Virus record (IMG/VR): IMGVR_UViG_3300020467_000017
Span: 1 to 37,021 of that record
Reading direction: 5' to 3' (one strand)
DNA: 37,021 nt
From: a virus
The notes under the pieces were generated by a model that did not search any database, was not told where the DNA came from, and worked only from the letters and a program-made list of their open reading frames with translations. Position 1 is the stretch's first letter, and each line of letters begins with the position of its first letter. Both the position numbers and the translations under genes were made by a program. Shown piece after piece: positions 18,087 to 37,021 of the stretch.

Positions 18087-18114
18087 TTATTACACATTAT
18101 CTTTTTTGATTACA

Positions 18115-18312: not shown

Positions 18313-18315
18313 ATA
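18308..18315 (+). promoter_or_regulatory. Possible T4-type late promoter (AATAAATA)
   Basis: AATAAATA overlaps the stop codon of the 65-aa gene and ends 21 nt before the ATG at 18337. It is a one-base departure from TATAAATA and identical to the motif at 8259. Confidence 0.45.
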
Positions 18316-18336
18316 CAAAATAGTCTAGGTAAGTAA

Positions 18337-19397: not shown

Positions 19398-19403
19398 TAT
19401 TAT

Positions 19404-19411
19404 TATAAATA
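19404..19411 (+). promoter_or_regulatory. T4-type late promoter (TATAAATA)
   Basis: An exact TATAAATA seven bases after the stop of the preceding gene and 38 nt before the next ATG. The leader contains a good GAGGAG Shine-Dalgarno at 19434-19439. This is one of three exact consensus matches in intergenic DNA. Confidence 0.75.
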
Positions 19412-19449
19412 AGTTCATATAGGAAGAAAACACGAGGAGTTAAACTTAA

Positions 19450-20844: not shown

Positions 20845-20884
20845 TTATACATAGAGTACACCCAGTCTATATTCTTTACTTTGT

Positions 20885-20913
20885 GGGGGTTGCATTTTGC
20901 AATCCCCTTTTTT
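20885..20913 (+). terminator. Strong intrinsic terminator
   Basis: A 10-bp stem (20885-20894 with 20898-20907, one G.U pair), a 3-nt TTT loop and a run of six T directly after. A second, weaker 7-bp pairing TAGACTG/CAGTCTA brackets the stop codon just upstream (20837-20843 with 20863-20869). Oddly, the next ATG is only 8 nt after the T run. Confidence 0.9.
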
Positions 20914-20921
20914 ATTGACTT

Positions 20922-23900
20922 ATGTTCTACACCTACGAGTCAGGAGGAAGAGTCTCTAGACCTATAAGTGATTATAGGTCTGAGGTTTTGTCTGGCTCGT
21001 TTGCTGCTAGAGGTTTAGAAAGTTTTAAATTCAATCAAGGTCCAGCAGTACCACTCAGTGATATTAGTGGTACTCTTGCACAGTACGCAGATCGTAGTAT
21101 ATACAATCTTTCAAGTCAGAGATCAGGACTAGGAGTATTAAGTGGTGCTCAGACATCACAACAAGATGTACCACCAGGATATGTTTTACATCAACCAGGT
21201 CCAATCTACTCATGGACAACTGATGAACTTGGTGGTAACTCTGATGATAATCGTATATTCATACCAGCACCAAGTAGAATATTATTCTTAAACAATGCTG
21301 AAGAAACTAAGTCATATAGTTATCATCCAGCAGTTATTGATCTGTATACCGAAGTTGACTTCGGATTAATAACTGATAATGCTGGTAATAATACAAGTAA
21401 TAATGGTTTAGTTACAGACCTCAATGCAACATTAGTTGATTATGGTCGTGTTGTATATGTAACGACTGTAGAATCATTTGGATTTAGTAAGACACTTAAT
21501 GCTGCTTCATGGAAGGCAACTAGTGCATGGGTAGGTTCGGGTAGATTAATATCATTTGGTAAGCAGACATCTCCTGCCGTATACGGTACTATCACTGATG
21601 GTAAGGTACGACTTAGTGGTACTGCGGATGTTGACTATTCTCCTGCCATTGACGGCAGGGGAATTCTTCCGCTACAAGGAAATTCTATCATTGGAATTGC
21701 TGCTGCGATTGAAGGATTTGGAAGTCTTAGGAAGTTCTCTGGTTCTTCTGAATCTCTTACAGTTAATCCAGATGAGAGACAGATGTTGTTCTCGTTCACT
21801 GGTGAACGTATTGAGAAAACAACAAATATTCATATTGGTTCTGGAAGAATTAGAAATCTTGCCACACTTGAGGCAGAGAGAGGAACCTTTGATTATATCG
21901 GATCTGGTGAGATTACAATAAGATCTGATAAGTCAGATCAATATAAATTAGAAGACATTGCTGATTGGATACTTGAAGACATCAAGGGTAGACCTCTTGC
22001 AAGTATTAAGTACGAACCAGCAGACGAGAAACATACAGAAGATTATAATGAATCTGCTGTTGTCAGATTTACAGAACGTGACTACGGACTACTTGCAATC
22101 TGTTCTGTTGAAGAAATTGTAGTTGGTGATATATCTGGTCAAGGAACTGGATGTATTACCAAAGTTGAAATTGGTACAACAGCGAGAGTTGTATCTGGTC
22201 AAACTTATCAACCTGGATTGCCATCCAACAGTGCTACCAACTTTGTTGATTGGGGATCTGTTACTGAAATCGCATCCATGCGAGAGGATGGTGGTTGGAT
22301 TCTTAACCACACAGATCTCATTCCGTTTGGTGGAATTAAGATTGATCCTCATAATGGTTGTGCCGATAAGTTCCTACCTAGTTGGACAAGTCGTGGTTAC
22401 ATCAGTAAGCTTAGTGGTGTTGCACGAGTACCACTTGATGTTGGTGTACGTGGTAGTGGTGGATGGAAATACTTTGGTGCTTCTATTACCAACTTTGCTT
22501 TACTACAACCAGGTGACGGACTCTTTAGATTCTATAGTAGAAGTGCAGTTGGAATTAGTGCTACTACTAGTGGTGACGGTAGATTCTCTACATTCTCTGG
22601 TGGTGCTGAGTCTGCTACCTTTAATCCAACAGAGACACAGATGTTATTCTCCTTCACTGGAGCATACACAGATCTCAGATTTACATTTGGTACTTATCAT
22701 GGAGATGGTCGTCTCTTCAATGTCTCTGGTGGAGAAGAAAGAGGAACCAATTCTTATGTTGGATCTGGTGAGATTAAACTATTATCCAGAAAACCAAAAC
22801 TCATTGAACCTTCAGATGAGAAGCATACAGAAGATTACAACTTCAGTTCGTTTGTTCCATCAGTAGATCTTGATTATGGATTTATTGTTGATCCTTCCCT
22901 TGTAAGTTGTGTTAATGTCCCAATGGTATGGGATATTACTACCAACACAACAGCAACTACTGGATGTACTAAAGTTCCTGGTACTTTATCAGTAAGTGCC
23001 ACATATAGTATTCCTATTAATACAACAACACCAACATCCTACACAGATCTTGGTTCTGTTTCTACTATTGCAAGTCCATCCAATAATTACGGTTGGATAC
23101 TTGGAACTCATGCTCACGGTATACCATTTGGTACTGTTGCTGATATTACTGGTGTTGGTGAGACTCCAAGAGTATTCAATGAAGTTGGTGATGGAAGACT
23201 ATTCAGACTTCGTGGTGTTGCAAGAGTTCCATTAGATCAAAAGATTTTTGGTGGCGGTCTCTTCAAACCTCAAGGTGCATCTATTACCAACTTTAGTTTA
23301 CTTGCTATTGGTGACGGACATATCAATGGAATGTCTGGTGTTGCAACTTACAGCTTCCAAGTTGAGCATCTTGGTGACGGTAGATTCTCTACATTCTCTG
23401 GTGGTGCTGAGTCTTCAACATGGAATCCAACTGAGAAGCAAATGCTATTCTCCTTTACTGGAGGATATACAGATCTCAGCTTCACTCATGGTACATGGCA
23501 TGGTTCTGGAAGAATTAAGAACTTTGCTACTCTTAGAGCAGAAAGAACTTCTTATGATTATACAGGTTCTGGTACTATTCTCACATGGAACAAACTTGAG
23601 GAAGCAAGAACTTACTGGTACAACTGTAGTTCTATTGTTGAATTCCAAGATCTTGATTACGGATTCCTTGTTGATCCATCAACAATACCTGTTACATCTC
23701 TTACTACTCAGACAATATCTGATGTTACTGCACCAACAGGACACGTCAGAGTTGAGCAAGGTGAAGTAGTAACACTTGATGGAACTTATTCTGTTCCTTT
23801 ACAGACTACTACTGCAACTGAGTTTATTGATCATAACATTCTTCTTGAGTCAGAAGATCTATTACTTGATCATGGTCATATTCTGGATACCGTGGCGATG

Positions 23901-26900
23901 GGTCAGCCAGCATGTATCTATGGTGAGATTGACATTACTGGTGCTGCTCCTTCTGCGACAGTAGTTAATGAAAGTGGTGATGGAAGACTGTTCAGACTTA
24001 GAGGTGTTGCAAGAGTTCCACTTGATGCTAAGGTAATTACTTACGGTCTCTTCAAGCCTGGTGGTGCTTCCAAGACTAACTTTAGTCTACTTGCTATTGG
24101 TGATGGACATATCAATGGGTTATCTGGTGCTGCAACACACACCTTCCATGTTGAACATCTTGGTGACGGTAGATTCTCCACGTTCTCTGGTGGTGCTGAG
24201 TCTGCTACCTTCAATCCAACAGAGACAGAGATGTTATTCTCCTTCACTGGAGGATATACAGATCTCAAGTTTACTCATGGTACATGGCATGGTTCTGGAA
24301 GAATTAAGAACTTTGCTACTCTTAGAGCAGAAAGAACTTCCTATGATTGGATTGGTGATGGTGAAATTACAATTAGATCTAATAAGCCTGATCAGTATAC
24401 ACTTGAGGAACTTGCTAAGACTCAATTACTTGAGATTAGAAATGTCAATCTTGGTGATCTTAAGTACGAACCATCAGACGAGAAGCACACTGAATGTTAT
24501 AGTCCTGATTCACTTGTTGAATTCTTGGATGTTGATTACGGATTCCTTGTTGATCCATCAACAGTATCTGTTACAACACTCAATAGTCAAACTATTACAT
24601 CAGATATTACTGCTCCAACAGGACATGTTAGGGTTGAGCAAGGTGAGACAGTAATACTTGGTGGAACTTATTCTGTTCCAATACAGACTACTACTGCAAC
24701 TGAGTTTATTGATTACAATATTGTCAATGAAACTGAGGATGGTCTTTGGGATCATGGACATATTCTTGACACCGTTGCAATGGGTTACCCATTCGGTGAG
24801 ATATATGTCAAGGGTACTGCTACTGCTGTCTTCCAGCCTAACTGGGTTGGTAGTGGTATTGTTAGAGTTGATAATGCTGCTCATGCTAACTTCTCAGTTG
24901 GTTATATTGGTTCTGGTGATCTATTCTCATTCAATGGTTCTTCTGATACACTCAGTGTTTCTGTTGAAGGTGGTGGTCTATTCAGTGTTAGTGGTACTTC
25001 TCCATATGCTGTTGGTATTGGTGTTGTTGGTGAAGGTTCACTCAGGAAATTCTCTGGATCTGCTGAGTCTGTTACCTTCAATCCTGAAGAGAAGCAAATG
25101 CTCTTCTCCTTCATTGGAACTTCTGGAGATCCAAGTATTACACTGGCACATGAAGGATCAGGAAATCTATTTGCGTTTGATGGTAGTGGTGAAAGAGAGA
25201 CAAATGCTTGGTATGGTTCTGGTACAATTACATTGCGTTCCAGAAAACCAAAACTTACAGAACTTTCTGACGAGAAACATACAGAAGTCTATGATCTTGG
25301 TGTTTGTCATGACCCTGAAGAACTTGATTACGGATTCCTTGTTGATCCATCAACAGTATCAATTACACCTCTCACTACTCAGACCATTACGTCTGATATT
25401 ACTGCTCCAACAGGACATGTTAGAGTTGAACAAGGTGAAGTAGTAACACTTGGTGGAACTTATTCTGTTCCAATACAGACTACAGTACCTACTGAATTTT
25501 GGGATAATTATCTTGTTGCTGAGACTGAAGACGGTCTTTGGAATTACGGTTGGATACTTGACGATACTGGTAAGGATTGTCCGTTCGGTCAGATTGGTGT
25601 TATACGTGGTGATGCAATCACTGCTGAGATACAAGTATACACCTTTGTTGCTACTGGTGAGAGTGAACATAAAGTTCATGGTATTAACATTGGTGGTGAT
25701 GCATTCATCTTCGTTCCTCCAGCATGGAACTCTCCAGGTGATCCACCACTTGATGTTACTGGTGATGCAGATCCTACTCTCACACGTATTGCTATCTTTG
25801 ATGGTGGTTCTTTATTCGGATTGGGTGGAGCTGCTGAATGTACAACTATCGTACCTCCAACTGAGGATGTTCTATTCAGGTTCATTCCTGGTCCGTTTGA
25901 TAGATGGACAACATACGACTGGCAACCTAGTTGGGTATCCAAAGGTGGAATTACTCTTCCAGCAGGATTTACTGATACTCGTTATGTACCACATGTTATT
26001 GGTTCTGGTACATTCAGGAAGTTTGCTGGAGCAGCAGAATCTATTACCTTCAATCCAGAAGAGAGACAACTTCTATTCTCCTTCACTGGTGAACATCAGG
26101 TCAGCTTCACTGCTAATCCTCCAGAGGATACAGCAAGAATCAAGGTTGGTAGTCTTGCAGATACTAGATTTATTCCTAAGTATCCAGGTTCTGGTGAAAT
26201 ATATCTTACTGGTATTGCTAAGACTCATTGGGTTCCACATATTATTGGTACTGGATTTATTCCAACATTCTCTGGAGCAGCAGAATCTATTACCTTCAAT
26301 CCAGAAGAGAAGCAAATGCTCTTCTCCTTTGTTGGAACAAGAGAAGCAGAGAAGTTATCTGTTGCAACAACTGGATTTGGTACTCTACGTCTTACTGGAG
26401 AATCTACTCAGTTACTTACATTTGCAGAGCAACCATTTGGTACAATACCTGTATCTGGAGAAGCAAAAACTCATTATGTACCAAGTGTTGTTGGTTCTGG
26501 TACATTCAGGAAGTTTGCTGGAGCAGCAGAATCTATTACCTTCAATCCAGAAGAGAAGCAGATGCTCTTCTCCTTTACAGGAGCAGGATCTCAGACTACG
26601 ACTGTTGTTCCTCCAGAAGGATTTGGTACTCTCTTTGGATTCAGTGGTGCATCTATCACAACCAGATCTGCATACGAAACACAAGGTCTGTATCAGATCA
26701 GTGGCGATGGTCATATTACTGCATCTATCTTACATATTGGTTCTGGTACATTCAGGAAGTTTGCTGGAGCAGCCGAGTCTCTTACAGTCAACCCAGATGA
26801 AAGACAACTTCTATTCTCCTTCACAGGAGCAGGGTCTGAATCTACTAGTGTTGCTGAGATCAAACAGGTTGAAGTTGATATTACTGGAAAGGCAGATCCA

Positions 26901-28001
26901 GTTCTCAGAACATTTGCTTGGCATGGATCTGGAACAATCTCTGTTACTGGAGAAGCCAAAACTCATTATGTACCACATGTTATTGGTACTGGTTACATTC
27001 CAGTATTCAATGGTGCTGCCGAGTCTCTTACAGTCAATCCAGAAGAGAAGCAAATGCTCTTCTCCTTCACTGGAGAGAAGGAAGAAAGAATTCTTGTCAG
27101 AGAAGTCAGTCAAGGTGGAACACTCAAACTCCTTGGTACATCTGGAGATCCATTACTCACATTTGCAGAGCAACCATACGTTCAGACGAAGATCAGTGGA
27201 AAAGTTTCCTTCACTGTTCATCGCAGTATATTTGGTTCTGGTACACTTTATGCATTCTCTGGTGCAGCAGAAGCAACTGCCATTGTACCAGATCCAAGTA
27301 CAATTCTCTTCCAGGCATACGGAGAATCAGAATTCAGAATTACACGTTCTTACGTTGGTTCTGGTACTCTCAGAAAAATCAGTGGTGCTGCGGAATCTGT
27401 TACATTCAATCCAGACGAACAGCAAATGCTGTTCTCCTTCACTGGAGCTGGTACACAGTCCAAGACTGCGAGAGAAATTGGAACAGGAACCCTTACTACA
27501 ACTGGAGAAGCTGGAGTTCTTCTCAGATTCGCACACACTGGAGAAGGTACAATATCTCTCAGTGGAGATGCTCATACAACCAGAGCAAGAGACTTCGTTG
27601 GATTTGGTACAATTCCAGTTCTTACTGGTGCTGCGGAATCTATCAGCTTCAACCCAGAAGAAAAACAATTATTATTCTCCTTCCACGGAAAACGAATTTC
27701 CGAGAAGATTACCGCAAGAGAACTCAGTCAAGGCGGTACTCTCGTTGTTGGAAGTACATCAGGCGATCCACTACTTACATTCGCAGAGCAGCCATATGTT
27801 CGTCTTGATATCACAGGTGACAGTTATGACATTCGCACTCGTGCATATCAAGGATCTGGAAGAATATCCAATGTCAATAATCTTGATGAAGCATTTGCTC
27901 GTACTCCATACATCGGTAGTGGTATTGCAACAATTACTGGTGATGCATTCGTACAAGTACAACTATTCCAGCCACCACACGTACAGGTCTGGATTATATA
28001 A
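20922..28001 (+). CDS. Giant repetitive virion/fibre protein, 2359 aa
   Basis: The product is made of two nested repeat classes. The short class has the pattern GSGxLRKFSGAAESxTFNPEEKQMLFSFTG; I count 12 clear and 2 degenerate copies from about residue 265 to 2256, with a period of about 82 residues in the C-terminal third. The long class (six copies, 'DEKHTExY...DYGFLVDPS...TEFID...HGHILDT..MG.PFG') recurs every 240-293 residues in the first 1600 residues. The architecture suggests a long fibrous protein with serial small beta domains. The start has no Shine-Dalgarno and lies 8 nt after a terminator; no better in-frame start is visible. I do not recognise an enzyme domain. Size, repeats and context favour a virion surface or tail fibre protein. 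Some T4-like marine phages encode comparably large structural proteins. Confidence 0.8.
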   Translation: MFYTYESGGRVSRPISDYRSEVLSGSFAARGLESFKFNQGPAVPLSDISGTLAQYADRSIYNLSSQRSGLGVLSGAQTSQQDVPPGYVLHQPGPIYSWTTDELGGNSDDNRIFIPAPSRILFLNNAEETKSYSYHPAVIDLYTEVDFGLITDNAGNNTSNNGLVTDLNATLVDYGRVVYVTTVESFGFSKTLNAASWKATSAWVGSGRLISFGKQTSPAVYGTITDGKVRLSGTADVDYSPAIDGRGILPLQGNSIIGIAAAIEGFGSLRKFSGSSESLTVNPDERQMLFSFTGERIEKTTNIHIGSGRIRNLATLEAERGTFDYIGSGEITIRSDKSDQYKLEDIADWILEDIKGRPLASIKYEPADEKHTEDYNESAVVRFTERDYGLLAICSVEEIVVGDISGQGTGCITKVEIGTTARVVSGQTYQPGLPSNSATNFVDWGSVTEIASMREDGGWILNHTDLIPFGGIKIDPHNGCADKFLPSWTSRGYISKLSGVARVPLDVGVRGSGGWKYFGASITNFALLQPGDGLFRFYSRSAVGISATTSGDGRFSTFSGGAESATFNPTETQMLFSFTGAYTDLRFTFGTYHGDGRLFNVSGGEERGTNSYVGSGEIKLLSRKPKLIEPSDEKHTEDYNFSSFVPSVDLDYGFIVDPSLVSCVNVPMVWDITTNTTATTGCTKVPGTLSVSATYSIPINTTTPTSYTDLGSVSTIASPSNNYGWILGTHAHGIPFGTVADITGVGETPRVFNEVGDGRLFRLRGVARVPLDQKIFGGGLFKPQGASITNFSLLAIGDGHINGMSGVATYSFQVEHLGDGRFSTFSGGAESSTWNPTEKQMLFSFTGGYTDLSFTHGTWHGSGRIKNFATLRAERTSYDYTGSGTILTWNKLEEARTYWYNCSSIVEFQDLDYGFLVDPSTIPVTSLTTQTISDVTAPTGHVRVEQGEVVTLDGTYSVPLQTTTATEFIDHNILLESEDLLLDHGHILDTVAMGQPACIYGEIDITGAAPSATVVNESGDGRLFRLRGVARVPLDAKVITYGLFKPGGASKTNFSLLAIGDGHINGLSGAATHTFHVEHLGDGRFSTFSGGAESATFNPTETEMLFSFTGGYTDLKFTHGTWHGSGRIKNFATLRAERTSYDWIGDGEITIRSNKPDQYTLEELAKTQLLEIRNVNLGDLKYEPSDEKHTECYSPDSLVEFLDVDYGFLVDPSTVSVTTLNSQTITSDITAPTGHVRVEQGETVILGGTYSVPIQTTTATEFIDYNIVNETEDGLWDHGHILDTVAMGYPFGEIYVKGTATAVFQPNWVGSGIVRVDNAAHANFSVGYIGSGDLFSFNGSSDTLSVSVEGGGLFSVSGTSPYAVGIGVVGEGSLRKFSGSAESVTFNPEEKQMLFSFIGTSGDPSITLAHEGSGNLFAFDGSGERETNAWYGSGTITLRSRKPKLTELSDEKHTEVYDLGVCHDPEELDYGFLVDPSTVSITPLTTQTITSDITAPTGHVRVEQGEVVTLGGTYSVPIQTTVPTEFWDNYLVAETEDGLWNYGWILDDTGKDCPFGQIGVIRGDAITAEIQVYTFVATGESEHKVHGINIGGDAFIFVPPAWNSPGDPPLDVTGDADPTLTRIAIFDGGSLFGLGGAAECTTIVPPTEDVLFRFIPGPFDRWTTYDWQPSWVSKGGITLPAGFTDTRYVPHVIGSGTFRKFAGAAESITFNPEERQLLFSFTGEHQVSFTANPPEDTARIKVGSLADTRFIPKYPGSGEIYLTGIAKTHWVPHIIGTGFIPTFSGAAESITFNPEEKQMLFSFVGTREAEKLSVATTGFGTLRLTGESTQLLTFAEQPFGTIPVSGEAKTHYVPSVVGSGTFRKFAGAAESITFNPEEKQMLFSFTGAGSQTTTVVPPEGFGTLFGFSGASITTRSAYETQGLYQISGDGHITASILHIGSGTFRKFAGAAESLTVNPDERQLLFSFTGAGSESTSVAEIKQVEVDITGKADPVLRTFAWHGSGTISVTGEAKTHYVPHVIGTGYIPVFNGAAESLTVNPEEKQMLFSFTGEKEERILVREVSQGGTLKLLGTSGDPLLTFAEQPYVQTKISGKVSFTVHRSIFGSGTLYAFSGAAEATAIVPDPSTILFQAYGESEFRITRSYVGSGTLRKISGAAESVTFNPDEQQMLFSFTGAGTQSKTAREIGTGTLTTTGEAGVLLRFAHTGEGTISLSGDAHTTRARDFVGFGTIPVLTGAAESISFNPEEKQLLFSFHGKRISEKITARELSQGGTLVVGSTSGDPLLTFAEQPYVRLDITGDSYDIRTRAYQGSGRISNVNNLDEAFARTPYIGSGIATITGDAFVQVQLFQPPHVQVWII
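23484..23551 (+). repeat. 68-bp perfect direct repeat (copy 1)
   Basis: Identical over 68 bp to 24273-24340, 789 bp (263 codons) downstream in the same gene and frame. It lies in the segment encoding THGTWHGSGRIKNFATLRAE. Confidence 0.92.
23655..23684 (+). repeat. 30-bp perfect direct repeat (three copies)
   Basis: The segment encoding DYGFLVDPST is identical over 30 bp here and at 24534-24563 and 25326-25355. It marks the long repeat class of the giant gene. The fourth relative at about 22869 is diverged. Confidence 0.9.
24273..24340 (+). repeat. 68-bp perfect direct repeat (copy 2)
   Basis: Second copy of the 68-bp repeat at 23484-23551. Synonymous positions are also identical, which implies recent duplication or gene conversion. 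Confidence 0.92.
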
Positions 28002-28003
28002 TA

Positions 28004-28011
28004 CATAAATA
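28004..28011 (+). promoter_or_regulatory. T4-type late promoter (CATAAATA)
   Basis: CATAAATA lies three bases after the stop of the giant gene and ends 28 nt before the next ATG, in a 38-nt gap. A 6-bp inverted repeat (28022-28027 with 28032-28037) sits in the predicted leader just before the start codon. Confidence 0.65.
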
Positions 28012-28039
28012 ACTTTGAGAAAACTATGTGTATAGTTGA

Positions 28040-28501
28040 ATGACAACTCAGGTACAATTTAGAAAAGGTACTACTGCGGAACATGCACTTTTTACAGGTG
28101 CAAATGCTGAAATAACAGTTGATACCGAAAAGAAAACTGCTGTTGTACATGATGGTTCGGACATTGGAGGATTTGAACTCCAACGTGCAAGGTGGGAAGT
28201 AGTTAATACATCAGGAAATATTTCCTGTGGAGTAAGATATTTGATTGACACCAGTACTGGTGCTTTAACTTTTAATATGCCATATGAATCTTCAGGAGTG
28301 GTTCCTCATGTAGGAGACATGATTGAGATGACTGATTTTAAAGCAACATGGGCTATAAATAATGTTACGTTGACGACTAATGGAAACAATCAACAGTTTT
28401 TGAATAAGTTCGGTAATACCGATCCCACATTCGTTCTTGATGTTGCTGGTTTATATGTTCAATTTGTTTGGGACGGAACTTACTGGAGGATCATGTCATG
28501 A
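28040..28501 (+). CDS. Small fibre protein with Mtd_N-like head
   Basis: A 153-aa protein. Residues 1-42 (VQFRKGTTAEHALFTGANAE, ITVDTEKKTAVVHDGSD) match the pattern of the N-terminal attachment domain seen in many fibre and tropism proteins (Mtd_N type). The remainder is a beta domain (GVRYLIDTSTGALTFNMP, VGDMIEMTDFKATWAINNVT, then YVQFVWDGTYWRIM), as found in tail-spike C-terminal regions. The stop overlaps the start of the next gene in an ATGA arrangement. It is probably a virion fibre or connector; its partner may be the following cupredoxin-containing protein. No reverse transcriptase or variable-repeat system was seen near it. Confidence 0.72.
   Translation: MTTQVQFRKGTTAEHALFTGANAEITVDTEKKTAVVHDGSDIGGFELQRARWEVVNTSGNISCGVRYLIDTSTGALTFNMPYESSGVVPHVGDMIEMTDFKATWAINNVTLTTNGNNQQFLNKFGNTDPTFVLDVAGLYVQFVWDGTYWRIMS
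28485..28490 (+). promoter_or_regulatory. Ribosome binding site that decides the start at 28498
   Basis: GGAGGA lies 7 nt before ATG 28498. The frame extends upstream to a TTG at 28468, but this site and the ATGA overlap with the previous stop favour 28498. Confidence 0.8.
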
Positions 28502-29190
28502 GTTTATATCTGAGTGCAAGCACTGCAACACAAGAACAAAATGTTGCAAATTCAAATGACTTTACTGTCCATGCTCTGAGAAGAGATAAGGATGGTTTAC
28601 TTCATTATACTCAAGCAAGATCTACAGAAGATGTAGTTTATGATTTTCATCGCACAGACGGTGAAGAATATACAGATTTTCTTCAAGGTGTTGAATACGT
28701 AGAAGCAGGAAGTGTCATAAGGACACATACCTTTGCTGTTGGTGATCAAGGAATGGATTACTTGATTACTGGTAGTGATAGGAAAAACTCTTTTAACGGA
28801 TATGTTAATCCAACATTAACAATACACGTTGGAGACACAATAGAATTTGTAGTTAATACACCTGGACATCCTTTGGTACTAAAGACTGTTCAGGGAACTG
28901 GGGCTACAGACCTCGTTGTCGGTGCTACTAACCAAGGCACTATTAACGGCACACTAACTTGGACTCCAGATTCAACTGGATCTTTTTATTATCAGTGTGA
29001 ATATCACAATATCATGTATGGAATATTGAATGTTGTTAATCAAGAAAGATCATATACAAATGATCCAGATGATAAATATCAACAGTTCAGGTTTGATTTC
29101 AGACGCTTGACTTATTTTATTGATGATGATGGTTACTTAGTCGCAAGACTAAATAAAGATTATGATCACACAACAAACGGACCTAAGTAG
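28498..29190 (+). CDS. Virion protein with cupredoxin domain
   Basis: A 230-aa protein. Residues about 98-180 form a cupredoxin (plastocyanin/amicyanin-like) domain: NPTLTIHVGDTIEFVVNTPG, then His124 in GHPL, a LTWTPDSTGSFYYQC strand, and the loop Cys167-x2-His170-x2-Met173. All four ligands of a type 1 copper site are therefore present, with amicyanin-like C-x2-H-x2-M spacing. The flanks (1-95 and 181-230) are unrelated: the C-terminal KYQQFRFDFRRLTYFIDDDG segment looks like a virion attachment region. There is no signal peptide, so this is not a periplasmic or lumenal electron carrier of standard type. Neighbours are fibre proteins. The copper-binding prediction rests on intact ligands; redox function is unknown. 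Confidence 0.82.
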   Translation: MSLYLSASTATQEQNVANSNDFTVHALRRDKDGLLHYTQARSTEDVVYDFHRTDGEEYTDFLQGVEYVEAGSVIRTHTFAVGDQGMDYLITGSDRKNSFNGYVNPTLTIHVGDTIEFVVNTPGHPLVLKTVQGTGATDLVVGATNQGTINGTLTWTPDSTGSFYYQCEYHNIMYGILNVVNQERSYTNDPDDKYQQFRFDFRRLTYFIDDDGYLVARLNKDYDHTTNGPK

Positions 29191-29202
29191 GGATTTTAAC
29201 AA

Positions 29203-32200
29203 ATGGCAGATTTTAGACTCGGCAGACTGAAGTTTAAGTGGCGTGGCGATTGGGCTGGCTCCACTGCTTATGTCATTGACGATATCGTCAAGTACGGTGG
29301 TTACACATATGTGTGTACAACCAATCACACATCATCAGCAAGCGAAAGTCTCTTTTATGGTGATATAGCCAAATGGGATGTTCAAAGTGAAGGTAATGAA
29401 AATAAAGGAGATTGGCAAGCCAACACTTGGTATAAACTTGGCGATGTAGTTAAGTTTGGTAATACACAATACCTCACTAGTGTTGCTCATGATTCTGGTG
29501 CTTCTTTTGATTCTACTAAGTTTACCGTTTACTTAGAAGGTCTGAATTTTGAAGATACTTGGACAGCAAGTAACCCTTATCAGAAGGGAGACATTGTAAC
29601 TTATAGAGGTTACAGCTACATTAGCAAGACAACACATACTAGTACTACTACTCCTAATGACGATACAACAAATTGGGATGTAATTACTACTGGTTTTTCT
29701 GCTCAAGGTGAATACAATTCTGGAACAACATATGCCCCAGGTGATGTTGTAAGGTTTGGTGGTAATACATTTGTAAACAAAGTAGGTGGTGTAGGATCAG
29801 ATCCTACAAATACTTCCGACTGGGATCTTATTACAGAAGGATTCAATTGGTTAGGTGGTTGGGATTCTGCAACTGTATACCAAATAGGTGACGTTGTTAA
29901 CAGAAACTCAAACTCTTATGTTTGTAAAGCATCTGCTGTAACTGGTGCTTCTACTGCTCCTGAGTTAGATCCAGGTGGTACATATTGGAACTACGTTGCA
30001 CAGGGTGGTGACACTGCACAGGTTCTCCAAGAGACTGGAGACATGCTTTATCAAGCAGCATCTGGTGTTAATAGAATTGCACTTCCATCTGGAGCAACAA
30101 CTTCTAACACTGCTGCAACTAAGCACACAATTACTACTGCAACTTACAATCCAACAACAGGTTTCTTAACAGCAACAGTAGCTGCTCATGGATTTGCTAA
30201 TGGTGACTTTGTTCTGTTTAACGATGGTTCTATCACATTTACTTGTGCTAAGGATAGTAACGCAACAAACCATGCTTACCCACGTTCAACCGATCCTTCT
30301 AGTGGAAAATATCTAGAAATTTCAAATGTAACTACTGATACTTTTGAAGTTAAAGTTGGTATTTCTTCTGATACATCAGCACATACATTTGTTACTGCTA
30401 CAGCAGATGGTTTAAATCACATTGGTAACGTATCTGCTTCAAGGGAAGCAAGTGGTCAAGTTTTATCAGTTGGTGGTAATCCATTACTTCCTCAGTGGGA
30501 GAGAAATAACGTAACAGATTCTGTTTACTACGTTACTAAAGATGGATCTGACGCTAACCACGGTAGAAGCATCTCTAGGGCGTTTGCTTCACTAAGATAT
30601 GCTTGTGACTACATTGGTAGTTTAACAGGTGCTGACGCTGCTTCTGCTACCAATCCAATAACAATTTTTATTAAGTCTGGTGAATACAAAGAAATTCTTC
30701 CAATAGTTATTCCTGAGTTCGTTTCATTATACGGAGATAACTTAAGAACTTCTGTCATTAAGCCTGCACCTGGTGATTCACATTTACAAGCATTGGTTCT
30801 TGGATCAAGTGTATCCCATCTTAAGTTTGGTGATACTGTTTCCAACTCTATTGGAACAAAAACCGCTATGGTTCTTGATTCTGATTATGCAAACAATGTT
30901 CATCTACTCAACTTAACTGGTGGTCCTTGGTCAACTGGTGACAAGTACATGGATCTAATTGGTAATAAAGAATCAGATGCTTCCAATTTATTACTAACAA
31001 ACAAAGCATTCATTGCTGCTGAAGCATATCATAAGTATGTTGATGATACAAATCAGGGTAACGGATCTAATCCAACTGGTGATCAAGCAACAATTATAGC
31101 TCGTTTGGTAACTTTAGTTGAAGCTCTTGCTTATAATGTTAAGCATGGTGGTAACAATGAAATTTATGATTATGGTGCTGCATTAACTACTGGTACTGAT
31201 ATTACTGGAGTAGCTGGAGAAGATTCAAATCTAGTTAATAATATCGGTGCAACTAGTACAGAAGTTATGAGAAACGAAGTTGTTAGTGCTTCTCCTAACA
31301 ACAACGAGACTCAGACAAGAGATCTTACAATTACTGCTGATAGTTCTGATCCTAAGTGTCCTAATGTTGCTTCTGCAATTACAACACTTATCGGCATCAT
31401 CACTAGTGCTATTAGTAACACTAACATGAGTGGTACTACTAAGACAGATACATTTATTGACATTTCTACTGTAGCAACTCGTATTAACGAAGAGTCTACA
31501 ATGTGTTATCTTGGATCTTCTACTACTCTTAAAGAGTTAGTATTTGAAGGCATGAGTGGATTTGTTCCTTCTATATCTGATGATAAGGACATGGACACTT
31601 CCACTATTAAGGGTGTGTTCTTTAGATTTAATCCTAATTCATCTATTCAAAAGTCACCATACATCCAAAACTGTACCGTATTTGGTGGTGCAGCAGTTGG
31701 TTGTTATCTTGATGGTGCTGTACACAATCACTTTAATAATTCGTCAACACCTTCTTACAAGTCAATGGTGTTTGACTCCTACACTCAAGTCCTAGATGGT
31801 GGTGTTGGATTCTATGTTAAGAATGCTGCTGCAACTGAGATTGTCTCCTCATTCACATACTACGCACACATTTCTTACACTGCTACTGAAGGTGGTAGGA
31901 TCCGTGCTGTTACTGGTAACTCATCTTACGGTAAGTACGGTGCAATTGCTAGAGGATTTGATTCTGCTGAGACAACCATTGATGGTACTGTTAAAGGTCT
32001 TCGTCTTGAGATTGATGTTAACAATCCTCTTACTGGAGCACTTACAATCGGAGAAAGACTTGTTGGTACAACATCAGGTGCTGTTGGAGAACTAATCAAT
32101 GACCAGAATGCTTCTGGATTCTTATACTACTTCCCAGTTAAGGGAACCTTTACACAGGGTGAAACAGTTACAGGTCAGACATCTGGTGTTGTTGCAACTC

Positions 32201-33969
32201 TTGTAAACAATACAGATGCACTTACTGGACAGAAAGGATTTGTTCTTACTGTTGAAGGTCTATCAAATGGACCTGACGCTGGTGGATCTGTTGAATTAGT
32301 TGATGATGGTGTTAATAATGACAGTGGTTCATTCGTTATCTCTAACTCTAGTTACACTGCTCCTGATGGACGTGGTACTCTAACAGTTGAAAGAGGTAAG
32401 TTAGGAACTGCACCATCTGCACAAAACGGTACATCTACTGTTTCACTATTTGCTGATGCTGGAGCAGTTTCATCTTTAACTGCTGCTATTAACGCAGGAG
32501 ATTCTTCACCTGTAACAATGCAAGTTTCCAGTGTTTCAGGAATGGCAATCAATGGTCATCTTGTTATCAATAATGAGTTGTTCAAAGTTCTATCATTCCC
32601 TTCAGCATCATCTGTTGAAGCAGAGCGTGAACAAGAAGGAACAACTGCTGGAGCACATGCTAACGGTGCTGGTATTGCAATTCTAGACGCTAAGATTGCA
32701 TCTCAGGATGAGATTATTGAAGATGTTGGACAAAATGATCTATCAATTCGTGTTGCTGCTGCAAACATCGGTCTTGATCCAAGTGATTACATCAAGATCG
32801 GTTCTGAGTTCATGAAGGTTACTGTTGTTGCTCCTGATACAACTGGTATCACAACACTACAGTTGGCAGACGAGAAGACAGTTGGTGCTACCGATGGACA
32901 GTCATTTAAGATTCGCTATCGTTACTCACAAGTACGTCTAACTGCTCATGACTTCCTAGACGTTGGTACTGGAAGTAAAGCTAATACTAATTGGCCAAAT
33001 CTTCCACTATCTCCAAATGTCCCATCACATGAAACAGATGAGACACGTCCAGGTCGTGTTTACTACGTCTCTACCGACCAAGATGGTAACTTCTCTGTTG
33101 GTAAGTACTTCAAGGTTGAACAGGCAACTGGTAAGGCAACACTAGACGCTTCTGCGTTTGACTTATCTGGTCTATCAAGTTTGAGACTTGGTTCTATCGG
33201 TGCTCAGTTGGGTGCTGCTATTAACGAATTCTCTACTGATGGTACATTATCACAAAACAGTGATGAGAAAGTTGCTACACAGAAAGCTGTTAAGACATAC
33301 GTTGATGGTTTATCAGCACTTTCTGGCGATTTAACTATCGCAGGTAACTTGACAGTTAAGGGTACAACAACATCCATTGCTTCTGTTACCTTGACTTCCA
33401 AGGATAAGAACATTGAACTTGGTGTAGTTGCAACAGGTGCTTTCACTGGTGATATTGCTGCTGGTGCTAACACAATTACTAACGTATCTGATCTAACCAA
33501 CCTTGCTCCTGGTGTTACTCTAACACTTACAGGAAGTGGTGGAACAGTTACACTATCATCTGGTGGTGTTGTAACTGCTGTTAGTGGTACTACAGTAACC
33601 ATTGACCAAGTATTTGGTGGAACTGGAACTGCTTCTGGTGCTGCGTTCTCTGGAACTGGTGCATCTAATACTACTGCTGATGGTGGTGGTATTTCAATTG
33701 AAGGTGGTAACGATGGAGATAAGACAATCCAATGGTTATCTTCCAATGACAAGTTCAACTTCAACAAAGGTATTGAACTTGCAAATGGTGAAGCATTAAC
33801 TATCAATGGAACTTCTGTTATTACAGAGACTACAATGATGGGTAAGACAGTTATTACTGATCTTGCTTCCGCAGATCACACACAATTTGCTACTGCTGGT
33901 GCAGTTAAGCAATATGTTGATAGTCCAGAAAACGCATCTGCATACTTCTATAGTACTATGAGTTCCTAG
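29203..33969 (+). CDS. Large tail fibre/baseplate protein with CBM5/12-like repeats and beta-helix
   Basis: A 1588-aa protein preceded by a TAGGGA ribosome binding site. Residues about 12-270 hold five repeats of the CBM5/12 (chitin-binding-type) pattern 'GxWxxxTxYxxGDVVxxxGxxYxxxxxH', each ending near a W(D/N)xxxxG. Residues about 430-520 (VYYVTKDGSDANHGRS, then ITIFIKSGEYKEILPIVIPE and SLYGDNLRTSVIKP) look like the start of a right-handed parallel beta-helix of pectate-lyase-like type, apparently continuing to about 920. Later parts contain two GE.(L/V).G.TSG modules and a C-terminal region with NSDEKVATQKAVKTYVDGLS. Comparable proteins occur in T4-like cyanophages near the neck genes. A baseplate-attached fibre that contacts host polysaccharide is likely. 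Catalytic residues were not identified. Confidence 0.8.
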   Translation: MADFRLGRLKFKWRGDWAGSTAYVIDDIVKYGGYTYVCTTNHTSSASESLFYGDIAKWDVQSEGNENKGDWQANTWYKLGDVVKFGNTQYLTSVAHDSGASFDSTKFTVYLEGLNFEDTWTASNPYQKGDIVTYRGYSYISKTTHTSTTTPNDDTTNWDVITTGFSAQGEYNSGTTYAPGDVVRFGGNTFVNKVGGVGSDPTNTSDWDLITEGFNWLGGWDSATVYQIGDVVNRNSNSYVCKASAVTGASTAPELDPGGTYWNYVAQGGDTAQVLQETGDMLYQAASGVNRIALPSGATTSNTAATKHTITTATYNPTTGFLTATVAAHGFANGDFVLFNDGSITFTCAKDSNATNHAYPRSTDPSSGKYLEISNVTTDTFEVKVGISSDTSAHTFVTATADGLNHIGNVSASREASGQVLSVGGNPLLPQWERNNVTDSVYYVTKDGSDANHGRSISRAFASLRYACDYIGSLTGADAASATNPITIFIKSGEYKEILPIVIPEFVSLYGDNLRTSVIKPAPGDSHLQALVLGSSVSHLKFGDTVSNSIGTKTAMVLDSDYANNVHLLNLTGGPWSTGDKYMDLIGNKESDASNLLLTNKAFIAAEAYHKYVDDTNQGNGSNPTGDQATIIARLVTLVEALAYNVKHGGNNEIYDYGAALTTGTDITGVAGEDSNLVNNIGATSTEVMRNEVVSASPNNNETQTRDLTITADSSDPKCPNVASAITTLIGIITSAISNTNMSGTTKTDTFIDISTVATRINEESTMCYLGSSTTLKELVFEGMSGFVPSISDDKDMDTSTIKGVFFRFNPNSSIQKSPYIQNCTVFGGAAVGCYLDGAVHNHFNNSSTPSYKSMVFDSYTQVLDGGVGFYVKNAAATEIVSSFTYYAHISYTATEGGRIRAVTGNSSYGKYGAIARGFDSAETTIDGTVKGLRLEIDVNNPLTGALTIGERLVGTTSGAVGELINDQNASGFLYYFPVKGTFTQGETVTGQTSGVVATLVNNTDALTGQKGFVLTVEGLSNGPDAGGSVELVDDGVNNDSGSFVISNSSYTAPDGRGTLTVERGKLGTAPSAQNGTSTVSLFADAGAVSSLTAAINAGDSSPVTMQVSSVSGMAINGHLVINNELFKVLSFPSASSVEAEREQEGTTAGAHANGAGIAILDAKIASQDEIIEDVGQNDLSIRVAAANIGLDPSDYIKIGSEFMKVTVVAPDTTGITTLQLADEKTVGATDGQSFKIRYRYSQVRLTAHDFLDVGTGSKANTNWPNLPLSPNVPSHETDETRPGRVYYVSTDQDGNFSVGKYFKVEQATGKATLDASAFDLSGLSSLRLGSIGAQLGAAINEFSTDGTLSQNSDEKVATQKAVKTYVDGLSALSGDLTIAGNLTVKGTTTSIASVTLTSKDKNIELGVVATGAFTGDIAAGANTITNVSDLTNLAPGVTLTLTGSGGTVTLSSGGVVTAVSGTTVTIDQVFGGTGTASGAAFSGTGASNTTADGGGISIEGGNDGDKTIQWLSSNDKFNFNKGIELANGEALTINGTSVITETTMMGKTVITDLASADHTQFATAGAVKQYVDSPENASAYFYSTMSS

Positions 33970-33980
33970 AACTCATAGTA
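33954..33980 (+). repeat. Perfect 12-bp inverted repeat spanning the stop codon
   Basis: Arms 33954-33965 and 33969-33980 are exact reverse complements with a CTA loop; the TAG stop is at the loop. There is no T tract after it. The next base begins a second hairpin. Confidence 0.85.
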
Positions 33981-34009
33981 TAACAGGTGACACAATGAGT
34001 CACCTGTTA
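33981..34009 (+). terminator. Hairpin terminator candidate
   Basis: Perfect 11-bp stem (33981-33991 with 33999-34009) and a 7-nt loop ACAATGA, followed by CATTTTAT. The T run is short, so termination may be partial. It abuts the preceding stop-codon hairpin and is 5 nt from a late promoter. Confidence 0.7.
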
Positions 34010-34014
34010 CATTT

Positions 34015-34022
34015 TATAAATA
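34015..34022 (+). promoter_or_regulatory. T4-type late promoter (TATAAATA)
   Basis: Exact TATAAATA directly downstream of the tandem hairpins, ending 41 nt before the ATG at 34064. The leader contains TTGGAGAAACC, giving a GGAG ribosome binding site. Confidence 0.82.
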
Positions 34023-34063
34023 AAACAAGACAACAACTGAAATTTTAACTTGGAGAAACCTCA

Positions 34064-34381
34064 ATGGCCTCAGGAATATTTGGAAAAGTAGATCTCTCAT
34101 CCGCAACTACGTGGACAGAGATTGTTGCAGCACCAGGTTCTGGTGTCAAGGTGGCGACTCTTAATGTCGCTAATAGAACAGGGGCAGAAGTCTCTGTAAG
34201 AGTTGCAGTTAGAGATGCTGCTGGTAACGTCACTGATGCAGATTGCATTGAGTATGATACTAAAATACCTGCAAATGGTGTTCTTGAAAGAACAGGTATT
34301 GTTCTTGATACAAGTAACGGACTACATGTATACGCATCTGCTACTGGCACTACTGCCATAGCATATGGCATGGATAGCTGA
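34064..34381 (+). CDS. Small beta-sandwich virion protein, 105 aa
   Basis: The protein begins MASGIFGKVDLSSATTWTEI and alternates strand-like segments (VKVATLNVANRTG, EVSVRVAVRDAAG, DADCIEYDTKIPANGVLERTGIVLD, GLHVYASATGTTAIAYGMDS). The pattern 'xxxPANGVLERTGIVLDxxxGLxVxASxxxT' is typical of a small phage virion or collar-associated beta-sandwich found as a short gene beside tail fibres. It is the first gene after an exact late promoter, with a GGAG ribosome binding site, so strong expression is expected. The exact role is unknown. Confidence 0.7.
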   Translation: MASGIFGKVDLSSATTWTEIVAAPGSGVKVATLNVANRTGAEVSVRVAVRDAAGNVTDADCIEYDTKIPANGVLERTGIVLDTSNGLHVYASATGTTAIAYGMDS

Positions 34382-34414
34382 ACACAACTATAACAACAAG
34401 AAGGAACTAAAACA

Positions 34415-35893
34415 ATGGGAAGAAGTTTAACACAAGTCGCACAAACCAGTAGTGGCGGTGGCATAGCACATCATCCAGAGGATCCGTATACCCAACCCTG
34501 TTTCTCCGTTTGGAGTATGGAATACAGTGATGGTGGTGGTGGTTTCTTCATGTATGACCACAATCTTAACAGTATAAGTAAGTATAGAGGTGACGGTAAC
34601 CAAGCTTACTCTAACTATAGAACTTATGGTACATCTGCATCAGAGTTCATGCAGAACTATCATGGTTGGACTGGTTGGCAAACAACTAGTACTATGAGCT
34701 CAAACTCTGAGCGTCCTAGTGGTACTTCGTTTAGTGGATATCTTGGACATACTCATTTTACTCCAGCATCAAAACATAGTTCCTCTGGTGGTTGGGTAAG
34801 AAACGCTAATAACGGTTATGAGTATGCTGGTCGTGCTTTCCGTGACTGTAACGTGCTTGTTAACGAAACACGTCAGGATTACGCTTTCTTTACAAAACAT
34901 GAGGGCGGTAGTCATAGAAACTTCTTAATGCCAAGAAGTGCAAACCAGTATTGGAACGAAGACCAGTACGGTCAACATGCTAGATTCACTACTAGTTGTC
35001 AGTGGTCTCAGAGTATGTACGGTGGTGCGTGTTATAACGCCAAGACCAAGAAAGTTTGCTGGATGGAAACTAACACAAGTTATCAATTCAGACCTGTTAT
35101 CTACTCTGGTGTTGACGATCTTAGAAGAATGGCACATAACGGTATCTATGATACTGAAACAGAAAGTCGTGGTGATAAGTCTTGGAACGATAGTGATATA
35201 AAAGATTACTTCAATGACTCTAATAATAGAGTTATATACGATACATCTAGTAGTAAACCAACCAACCAAACTAGCGAAGATAATTATCGTTGTATTACTA
35301 TTCTTTGTGATGATGATACGGTTGTTATGTTCCAAATGATTCCATCATACGGTGCATGGTGTCACAGATGGAATTCATCTGGTAACTCAGAAGGTAACAT
35401 CTGGTCATCTGGTTGGACTACTTCCTATGGTTACGAGCAAGGAAATAGATATGGAGCTAGATGGGTTGCATCTAGTGATGGTAGATATATCTTTGCTTAT
35501 TGTGCTTCATACTATTACGGTTCTGGTATATACTACACTGCTGTTAGAGTTTCTGATGGTAAGTGTATACACGGATACTATCATGATAGTAGCTATGGTT
35601 ACCCAGTATGTCCAATAGGTAAGAGTAACTTCATCATGTTCCCAACATGGAACACAGATGGTGCTCCAGGTGTTTACTACTGTATGATGGATATGGAAAG
35701 ATGGTTCCATGATTATACTGATACTACACAGTTATCTCCTTGGAACTGGCATTCTAGTTGGATGATTGACGGTGCTTATTATAGTACATCATATCCAGCT
35801 ATTATTCCAGCTCAATATGATACTGCGTTATTCAATAATGCATTACCACAAAACAAAGAGCATCCAGCTCATCTTTACGAAGGTCACAATTAA
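34415..35893 (+). CDS. Probable virion protein, 492 aa, aromatic-rich, family not recognised
   Basis: Preceded by AAGAAGGAAC, an acceptable ribosome binding site 10 nt from the ATG. The product is very rich in Tyr, Trp, Ser, Asn and His, with repeated short aromatic pairs such as YHGWTGWQ, YYYGSGIYY and WNWHSSW. Weak periodicity (blocks starting near residues 190, 285 and 360, each with a strand such as KVCWMET, TVVMFQMIPS or YIFAYCAS) could indicate a beta-propeller, but this is uncertain. There is no signal peptide or membrane segment. It lies between a small virion protein and a possible assembly protein, under the same late promoter. It is probably a virion component, with glycan binding by aromatic residues only a guess. 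Confidence 0.6.
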   Translation: MGRSLTQVAQTSSGGGIAHHPEDPYTQPCFSVWSMEYSDGGGGFFMYDHNLNSISKYRGDGNQAYSNYRTYGTSASEFMQNYHGWTGWQTTSTMSSNSERPSGTSFSGYLGHTHFTPASKHSSSGGWVRNANNGYEYAGRAFRDCNVLVNETRQDYAFFTKHEGGSHRNFLMPRSANQYWNEDQYGQHARFTTSCQWSQSMYGGACYNAKTKKVCWMETNTSYQFRPVIYSGVDDLRRMAHNGIYDTETESRGDKSWNDSDIKDYFNDSNNRVIYDTSSSKPTNQTSEDNYRCITILCDDDTVVMFQMIPSYGAWCHRWNSSGNSEGNIWSSGWTTSYGYEQGNRYGARWVASSDGRYIFAYCASYYYGSGIYYTAVRVSDGKCIHGYYHDSSYGYPVCPIGKSNFIMFPTWNTDGAPGVYYCMMDMERWFHDYTDTTQLSPWNWHSSWMIDGAYYSTSYPAIIPAQYDTALFNNALPQNKEHPAHLYEGHN

Positions 35894-35912
35894 TTCCAAA
35901 GGTTAAACAAAA

Positions 35913-36476
35913 ATGGCATATTTATTAGTACGAAAGGCCGATGAAAAATTAGGCCACCCAACAAGTGTTGTTCAAATATTTGAATCAGATCCTGGTTCAG
36001 ATATAGAACTACCTGACTATGGCGACTATGTTGTCGCAGAATATCCTTACGATCCTGATTCAGAAGTAACTACTTCTTTAGTTCTCAATTCTGACGGTAA
36101 GACACTTTCTAACCCTTGGGCTGGAAAATCAATTGCCGAGCAGAAGCAACTTCATGATGATGCTATATCTGCTACGAGAGCAGCAGAATACAAAGAAGAA
36201 AGAAGAACGCAGATTAAACAACAGGCAAGGTATAAGATTGAAAAGATAAGCGAACCTTGGAAAATTGAAAGAGCAACTGAAACAGATCTTCTCAATGGTA
36301 ATAATGAAGCAATGAAAGCTATTGCTATAGCTAAGAAAGGTGCTAGGGATGAAAGTAATTCTAGAGAAGCAGAACTTGATGCATTAACTGATGAAATGGA
36401 AATAAGGAATTTCAATCCTTATAGTGGAGCAAATGCAACAAGTGAAGATTTAGCTAAACCTTTTTACCAGGGATAA
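35913..36476 (+). CDS. Possible tail-fibre assembly-type protein, 187 aa
   Basis: Two parts can be seen. Residues 1-75 are beta-like and acidic (SVVQIFESDPGSDIELPDYG, YVVAEYPYDPDSE). Residues 80-187 are mainly helical and charged, with AEQKQLHDDAISATRAAEYK, an Arg/Gln-rich helix, PWKIERATETDLLNG and an acidic ending. A beta N-domain plus a helical C-domain, placed directly after a putative adhesin gene, is the layout of many fibre chaperones, but the DWTQ-type signature is absent. It has an AAAGG ribosome binding site and is followed by a late promoter and terminator. I would call it hypothetical, with a chaperone role as an inference. Confidence 0.6.
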   Translation: MAYLLVRKADEKLGHPTSVVQIFESDPGSDIELPDYGDYVVAEYPYDPDSEVTTSLVLNSDGKTLSNPWAGKSIAEQKQLHDDAISATRAAEYKEERRTQIKQQARYKIEKISEPWKIERATETDLLNGNNEAMKAIAIAKKGARDESNSREAELDALTDEMEIRNFNPYSGANATSEDLAKPFYQG

Positions 36477-36497
36477 TAGTTAATTAACCATTGGAAT

Positions 36498-36505
36498 TAT
36501 AAATA
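36498..36505 (+). promoter_or_regulatory. T4-type late promoter of gp13 (TATAAATA)
   Basis: Exact TATAAATA 22 nt after the preceding stop, ending 28 nt before the gp13 ATG. Its last five bases are part of the 5' arm of the terminator hairpin at 36501-36530. With T4-like spacing, initiation would fall near 36511, inside the hairpin loop. Confidence 0.85.
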
Positions 36506-36533
36506 CCCGTAGGTAAAACTATGGGTATTTTTT
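36501..36533 (+). terminator. Intrinsic terminator overlapping the gp13 promoter
   Basis: A 10-bp stem (36501-36510 with 36521-36530, one G.U pair), a 10-nt loop, and a run of six T ending immediately before the ATG of gp13. Only transcripts that come from upstream contain both arms. Confidence 0.8.
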
Positions 36534-37021
36534 ATGGCCGAACCCACCAGTAGGGCAGAACTAAAAGATTACTGTCTAAGAAAGTTAGGGTTCCCAGTGC
36601 TGGAAGTCAATGTAGATGACGATCAGATAGAGGACTCAATTGATGATGCTTTACAATACTATCGTATGAGACATTACGATGGTGTTGAACTTGCATATAT
36701 GAAGCACATCTTTACTGCTGATGATAAGACAAAATTTCAGTCACAAGATACTGTAACAACTATAGGTAGTGGTGCAACTGCTACTGAGTGGAAAGTTAGA
36801 GATAGGTATATTGAAATACCAGCAGATGTTGTTGGTGTGACTAAGGTATTTGGTCTTGCTAGTAATGCTGTTAGGAACAACCTATTTGGTATTGAGTATC
36901 AGATCTTCTTGAATGACTTATATGCTGTAGGTTCTCTTGACTTCCTTAACTATTATATGGTTAAGACTTGGATGGAGACTATGGACATGGTACTTAACAA
37001 TGGTGCTTTTGTTCAGTATAG
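36534..37021 (+). CDS. 13: Neck protein gp13, T4-like (3' end outside window)
   Basis: The first 162 codons are visible. The N-terminus (AEPTSRAELKDYCLRKLGFP, then VLEVNVDDDQIEDSIDDALQ and YYRMRHYDGVE) is the characteristic start of T4-like cyanophage neck protein gp13. The following YIEIPADVVGVTKVFGL, GIEYQIFLNDLYAVGSLDFL and a YYMVKTWMETMDM helix also fit. In T4, gp13 and gp14 complete the head after packaging and join it to the tail. In T4 the gene follows g12 and wac, consistent with the fibre genes upstream here. The start follows a T run with no strong ribosome binding site; the predicted leader begins with AGG. Genes 14 and 15 would be expected just beyond the window. Confidence 0.87.
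   Translation, partial: MAEPTSRAELKDYCLRKLGFPVLEVNVDDDQIEDSIDDALQYYRMRHYDGVELAYMKHIFTADDKTKFQSQDTVTTIGSGATATEWKVRDRYIEIPADVVGVTKVFGLASNAVRNNLFGIEYQIFLNDLYAVGSLDFLNYYMVKTWMETMDMVLNNGAFVQY

Follow-up and report, generated by a model that had tools for sequence, protein, structure and literature searches.

A late promoter box, a hairpin and a run of T's share the same few bases immediately before gp13 in a T4-like phage, which raises the question of how this gene could be tied to its own promoter if transcription also arrives from the gene upstream. To understand this arrangement, we examined the 37,021-base IMG/VR virus record IMGVR_UViG_3300020467_000017 (38% G+C), referred to here as the window, the end of which falls within the gp13 gene of a T4-like, cyanophage-type virus. 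The gp13 product matches 482 phage records, 454 of which are named Synechococcus phage, Cyanophage or Prochlorococcus phage. The preceding open reading frame (ORF) gave no match in family searches that included PHROG and Pfam; its stop (36476) is separated from the gp13 ATG (36534) by 57 bases, the last 36 of which form the cassette considered here. Pfam returned no family for gp13 or for three upstream ORFs, Rfam at gathering thresholds gave zero matches within the window, and a near-DNA search of phage records with 30000-37021 as the query gave no match. The features are as follows.

35913..36476, + strand: upstream ORF of 187 aa, co-directional with gp13, its stop outside the cassette
36498..36505, + strand: T4-type late promoter box TATAAATA, an exact match, taken as -13 to -6
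36501..36512, + strand: 5' arm of the hairpin in the RNA fold, sharing five bases (36501-36505) with the promoter box
36511, + strand: predicted late transcription start (+1), placed by T4 box numbering only
36513..36518, + strand: hairpin loop GTAAAA, predicted to fall within the first bases of late RNA
36519..36530, + strand: 3' arm of the hairpin in the fold, carrying the likely Shine-Dalgarno sequence
36523-36526, + strand: likely Shine-Dalgarno GGGT, 7 nt before the ATG; many relatives have a GGGG-type sequence
36528..36533, + strand: six-T run, putatively the U-tract of an intrinsic terminator, and also the spacer from Shine-Dalgarno to ATG
36534-36536, + strand: gp13 start codon ATG, directly after the T run
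36534..37019, + strand: gp13 (neck protein, head-tail adaptor Ad2; PHROG 211, E 8.1e-21), 162 codons, truncated by the window end

A late promoter box within a putative terminator

The cassette reads TATAAATA-CCCGTAG-GTAAAA-CTATGGGTA-TTTTTT and is followed by the gp13 ATG. RNA folding of 36480-36540 yields a hairpin of 12 bp (36501-36512 with 36519-36530) at -18.4 kcal/mol, compared with a shuffled mean of -9.9 (z -2.9; 2 of 200 shuffles were as good), and the hairpin at 36501-36530 alone gives -15.8 kcal/mol. The first three T's of the run are able to pair with A's of the promoter. A stable hairpin with a U-run directly after it is the form of an intrinsic terminator, and the absence of this hairpin from the list returned by a stock terminator scan probably arises because the stem runs through TTT and leaves a tail with too few T's. 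The box within the cassette is late-type; in a promoter scan of 17022-37021, nothing of sigma-70 type was listed on the + strand past 36425.

In T4 late promoters the TA of the box is numbered -13/-12, and the late consensus derived in silico for S-PM2 is described as highly similar to that of T4 (both in passages of PMC2988020). Since this numbering, applied to the box in the window, puts +1 at 36511, late RNA would lose nearly all of the 5' arm, keeping its last two bases (36511-36512). RNA from 36511 onward folds at -7.2 kcal/mol compared with a shuffled mean of -10.4, that is, more weakly than its shuffles. An earlier note on this DNA had described a promoter box overlapping the 5' arm of a hairpin whose T run ends at the ATG, and the sequence and the fold bear out both its coordinates and its elements. 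Its distinction between read-through RNA with both arms and fresh RNA without the 5' arm agrees with the T4 numbering, the folds, the costs of opening the ribosome site and the conservation of the cassette, although the loss of the arm would be near-complete rather than total. It overlooked a second layer, the likely Shine-Dalgarno sequence in the 3' arm.

We consider it probable that the composite is a gp55-type late promoter nested in a putative intrinsic terminator, the 3' arm of which holds the gp13 ribosome site, and that it ties gp13 to its own late promoter. Polymerase arriving from upstream would copy both arms, and the hairpin and U-run would stop most transcription just before gp13; in any read-through RNA that escapes, the Shine-Dalgarno sequence is computed to be buried in the stem. 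Late RNA polymerase at TATAAATA would, by analogy with T4, start at about 36511, inside the hairpin, and the resulting RNA, without nearly all of the 5' arm, would not terminate there and has a ribosome site computed to be open. In this way gp13, and presumably the genes behind it, would be tied to the late promoter and insulated from an exchangeable upstream gene. Of 6 related records, all possibly fragments, two contain a gene for gp55; one of the two is a class-A contig (class A being the relatives that share the window's T run), and its gp55 is 80% identical to that of S-PM2.

The box itself is not enriched in the window, with 5 copies of TATAAATA against 3.9 expected, and we dropped its presence alone as significant. 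When both flanks were dinucleotide-shuffled with the box held fixed, the composite (a stem of at least 7, at least five T's and a start site cutting the hairpin) was rebuilt in 11 of 5,000 shuffles, or in 40 of 5,000 once four T's were allowed. Only the gp13 site, one of 20 [AC]TAAATA sites in the window, has a start-cut hairpin followed by at least four T's, and ten Markov copies of the window contained zero start-cut hairpins with at least four T's at such sites. The window and five related contigs each carry one or two T-run composites, compared with an average of 0 to 0.1 in Markov copies; the gp13 composite is one of these in the window and four of the contigs, and the fifth, which has the class-B form before gp13, carries one elsewhere.

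Several further elements were observed in the window. At 33981-34022 there is a tandem form, in which a strong terminator-like 11-bp hairpin (33981-34009) has a T-rich tail that runs into a copy of TATAAATA (34015-34022), beginning 49 nt before the ATG of an ORF at 34064. A terminator-like hairpin followed by six T's, with no late box inside, lies at 20885-20913, about 14 nt before the ATG of a 2,359-aa ORF at 20922. At 36521-36553 an out-of-frame ATG, which arises from the 3' arm in the CCCG/TGGG variant of the window, opens a 10-codon frame (MGIFYGRTHQ) overlapping the gp13 start; an AGG stands seven bases before this ATG, where late RNA is predicted to begin.

Predicted occlusion of the ribosome site and the late-promoter hairpins of T4

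Since the likely Shine-Dalgarno sequence lies in the 3' arm, the hairpin should hide the ribosome site as well, giving a translational block of the T4 gene-e type. In T4 gene e, long transcripts form an inhibitory structure and transcripts from the late promoters, which do not include its 5' part, are well translated; hairpins with a late promoter over the ribosome site are described for T4 e, soc, 49, I-TevI, I-TevII, I-TevIII and segB and for Aeh1 mobE (passages of PMC3014915 for gene e, and of PMC3014915 and PMC2988022 for the group). The computed cost of opening the ribosome site in the window is 13.7 kcal/mol for read-through RNA, falling to 3.8 for late RNA, a change similar to that in gene e, our positive control (16.3 vs 4.2), so that by computation the site is paired in the longer RNA and free in the late one. 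Class-A relatives (n=34) gave medians of 18.4 and 5.1 kcal/mol, and a relative form with the box in the terminator loop, here called the loop type, gave 7.3 and 6.6, that is, no occlusion. Against controls in which the 5' part was shuffled, 32 of 34 class-A, 12 of 31 class-B and 1 of 33 loop-type copies fell within the top 5%. The Shine-Dalgarno GGGT of the window is itself weak (-3.8 kcal/mol duplex); in class A the 3' arm generally carries a GGGG-type sequence seven to eight bases before the ATG.

These comparisons raise the possibility that the hairpin is a translational switch only, which hides the Shine-Dalgarno sequence as in gene e, with the T's serving as an A/T-rich spacer and no termination. 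The size of the opening-cost difference is that of gene e, the T4 examples work by hiding the ribosome site (passages of PMC3014915), and the class-B relatives retain the box, a weak hairpin and the Shine-Dalgarno sequence without a T run. However, loop-type relatives have a T run before gp13 with no occlusion, which a terminator explains and translational control on its own does not, and the class-A spacer is pure T, 5 to 8 long, apart from a TA next to the stem, although the class was picked by this run. We therefore regard a purely translational device as unlikely.

In the T4 hairpins and, by computation, in that of the window, a late promoter overlaps or adjoins the 5' strand of a structure that covers the ribosome site of longer RNA; late RNA does not contain this strand, and its site is free. 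They differ in that the T4 hairpins recovered here have no T run, whereas the hairpin in the window also looks like an intrinsic terminator and precedes a neck-protein gene. Among 32 TATAAATA sites in T4 (a scan restricted to this box, with a minimum of two G-C pairs allowed), four were start-cut, representing three hairpins: that of gene e, shared by two boxes, that of I-TevII and a weak hairpin preceding gene 19. None of these start-cut hairpins had four T's. The detector is incomplete, since soc, 49, I-TevI, I-TevIII and segB were not recovered, and the comparison covers the three hairpins that were. A site at T4 45638, at first taken as gene-49-like, was rejected because it is that of I-TevII. 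Thus class A looks like the gene e switch with an intrinsic terminator made from the same bases, the late-promoter hairpin switch being known from T4 and the putative terminator being added to it, with the relatives as the main support for this reading. Among the literature matches listed, titles and abstracts contained no late promoter inside a terminator in T4-like phages, which is weak evidence of absence.

Conservation and alternative geometries before gp13

We compared the upstream DNA of 77 of 80 gp13 loci in a first set (the partial loci L015, L055 and L066 were dropped, as were L174 and L282 from a later set). The 77 loci fall into two classes: class A, for which the rule demands TTTTT among the final 9 nt and TA[GT]GGG among the final 16, has a T run like that of the window, and class B, defined by spacing and an AGG core, has the late box and this core without a T run; the loop type was set by its 3' arm. 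Upstream DNA beyond the box is variable among relatives. Across 30 distinct class-A loci, identity was 93% in the cassette, 87% in the first 60 nt of gp13 and 60% in the 60 bases before the box, where shuffled upstream DNA gives 55%, and the upstream ORFs of these loci form nine clusters by a simple score rule. In 27 class-B loci the corresponding values were 81% (cassette), 82% (gp13 start) and 54% (upstream). Searching IMG/VR with the class-A cassette pattern gave 46 matches, all 46 before gp13, with 44 of the ORFs ATG-started and two GTG-started.

In 18 distinct class-A cassettes, all 216 cells of the stem are standard pairs and nine of the twelve pairs are invariant; one pair is seen as C-G, G-U, A-U and U-G. 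Double changes occur in 5 cells compared with 1.4 in shuffles (0 of 500 as high); counted by stem pair, however, double changes show no excess over shuffles (421 of 500 reach the observed number). The class rule dictates the T run and TA[GT]GGG of the 3' arm, and AAATA is set by the promoter, which leaves the 5' CCC-N-TAG side and the pairs that vary as the independent evidence. Likewise, the T-run length of 5 to 8 in these cassettes, and a spacer of only T save the TA beside the stem, do not count as independent evidence, since the class and the patterns are defined by the T run and part of the 3' arm. The class-B hairpin is weak, with 38 of 500 shuffles as good (21 of 22 distinct forms aligned, L033 left out); together with its occlusion result, this led us to reject class B as a hairpin family as firm as class A.

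To place these forms in a wider sample, we pooled 250 copies of gp13 (the window, the 77 loci, 158 further loci and 14 named phages), of which 133 are distinct in the last 60 bases. A strict detector found 66 of the 133 with a predicted start cutting the hairpin and at least five T's, five more with fewer T's, 11 with a terminator directly before the box, 36 with a box and no strict hairpin (mostly class B) and 15 with no box. The late box is absent from the 70 nt upstream of gp13 in S-CAM3, S-CAM1, Syn9, Syn19, P-HM2, P-SSM2, ACG-2014f and phiM7, and in some relatives without the box gp13 abuts the upstream gene. We therefore rejected the device as universal for gp13, given these eight named phages and the relatives without a T run. 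The economical switch proposed in the earlier note keeps its core logic but is too strong as a rule, and the check that it suggested, for the same overlap before gp13 in related phages, finds it in class A and, in another shape, in the loop type, but not in the forms with no box.

In the loop type (S-PM2, S-RIM44 and relatives) the late box lies in the loop of a terminator before gp13, and all 62 IMG/VR matches to this pattern precede gp13. As in the window, the box is inside an intrinsic-terminator-like hairpin and late RNA would lose the 5' arm; the differences are that the box is in the loop, that the hairpin ends at least 15 nt before the ATG and that the ribosome site is not hidden. Among 24 of 28 distinct forms (L196, L291, L129 and L130, of other lengths, were left out of the alignment), 97.3% of cells pair, with 30 double-change cells compared with 11.9 in shuffles (0 of 500 as high); double changes fall in three pairs, not above shuffles (347 of 500 as high). 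Many loop-type loci use the variant box CTAAATA, which resembles the a/gC late-box form reported for Aeh1 (passages of PMC2988020). Of the 80 late boxes in the complete S-PM2 genome, two, those of gp13 and p152, combine a start-cut hairpin with a T run (stems of at least 7 gave gp13 only, 1 of 80, and stems of 6 added p152); this count is no proof by itself, since ten Markov copies averaged 0.2 with a maximum of 2. In S-RSM4 the corresponding figure is 1 of 72 boxes, that of gp13. Another promoter-in-loop terminator, CCCTCTC-TAAATA with GAGAGGG and T's, was observed in two related contigs (G002 at 26783, L312 6783; G005 at 29092, minus strand, L318 9092), before a gene of about 187 aa of no known function, and its exact pattern has 4 IMG/VR matches.

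The recurrence of the overlap bears on whether the hairpin is a plain terminator of the upstream gene lying beside a late promoter, the overlap being compaction with no regulatory meaning. Late boxes do occur directly behind terminators, at 34016 in the window and at 87187, 155837 and 125538 in T4, and in class A the upstream stop lies 40 nt or more ahead of the ATG in 34 of 36 rows, compared with 4 of 26 for class B (Fisher p 1e-10, by rows). Overlap, beyond adjacency, is nevertheless found in more than one geometry, the Shine-Dalgarno sequence is located in the 3' arm and the cassette persists through changes of the upstream gene, and we regard this explanation as decidedly improbable. The class-B stop usually lies less than 40 nt from the ATG, in or adjoining the box (22 of 26 rows, compared with 2 of 36 for class A). 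When the gp13 tree was taken into account, about 5 (mean 4.6) of the 7 independent starred pairs showed the same direction and none the opposite one (sign test p 0.06), so that a tie between class and the position of the upstream stop is suggestive only. One reading is that ribosomes completing translation of the gene upstream would undo a terminator close to its stop codon. Orientation of the upstream ORF was rejected as separating the classes, as it is co-directional in 44 of 44 class-A and 33 of 34 class-B cases; loop-type orientation figures were not used, because the ORF picker skipped a small annotated upstream gene there.

The tree itself, a quick tree of 142 rows (9 labelled other), has a window-type clade in which 33 of 62 rows are class A and 28 class B. 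Classes A and B need 13 changes on this tree; when A is set against all other labels, 8 changes are forced by starred branches. This suggests that the terminator is readily gained or lost. These changes, and the switching of upstream genes at the cassette, would also be expected of a recombination joint conserved for its use as a crossover site. The promoter-early stem-loop (PeSL) cassettes of T4-type phages have reportedly been proposed, in work of Arbiol in 2010 and Comeau in 2014, to mediate gene shuffling. They share with the window a composite of stem-loop and promoter bordering exchangeable genes; in the window, by contrast, the promoter is late rather than early, the box is inside the hairpin and the element precedes conserved late genes. 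PeSL cassettes are mentioned in a passage of PMC4503421. A joint of this kind leaves unexplained the kept pairing with double changes, the placement of the Shine-Dalgarno sequence and the geometry of the start site; it is compatible with a late promoter nested in a terminator rather than exclusive of it, and as the source of the conservation it has very little probability.

The element before other genes and its possible role

The p152 geometry, with a box, CCTCC, GGAGG, a T run and the ATG in that order and the Shine-Dalgarno sequence in the 3' arm, has 74 IMG/VR matches. By downstream ORF, 51 precede the S-PM2p152 family, two short ORFs with the N-terminus of that family, 8 a SegE-like GIY-YIG protein, 7 a family of 446-468 aa with no PHROG match, 2 an uncharacterised family and 1 a gp25-like protein, and 3 have no nearby ATG. 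The median cost of opening the ribosome site in 48 distinct copies is 13.1 kcal/mol in read-through RNA and 4.2 in late RNA. The S-PM2 composite lies at 115170-115200 (L304 15170-15200), and S-PM2p152, annotated as hypothetical, matches a PHROG of RusA-like Holliday-junction resolvases (E 3.9e-23) and, below the family cut-off, a phage PDDEXK endonuclease family. For the GIY-YIG protein the Pfam match is SegE_GIY-YIG (E 1.6e-51) and the best PHROG is one labelled NAD synthetase; the gp25-like protein passes the Pfam GPW_gp25 cut-off. As T4 uses such hairpins on lysozyme, gene 49 and homing endonucleases (passages of PMC3014915), the analogous element on other nucleases here is suggestive of a parallel.

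We put at even chances the broader proposal that marine T4-like phages carry a distinct late element with two locks, in which initiation removes the 5' arm, so disarming the terminator and freeing the ribosome site. The element would exist in more than one geometry before the unrelated genes for gp13, a resolvase-like nuclease, a SegE-like nuclease and a gp25-like protein, and would parallel the switches that T4 places on gene 49, homing endonucleases and lysozyme, extended by a transcriptional lock. Loop-type phages in culture, S-PM2 among them, put a direct test within reach. If the proposal is true, the T4 lysozyme-type switch extends from translation to transcription termination, and a cassette of about 36 bases would let T4-like phages of the ocean shield a conserved virion gene, together with some late nucleases, from read-through, which would explain how genes upstream of gp13 can be exchanged without disturbing gp13.
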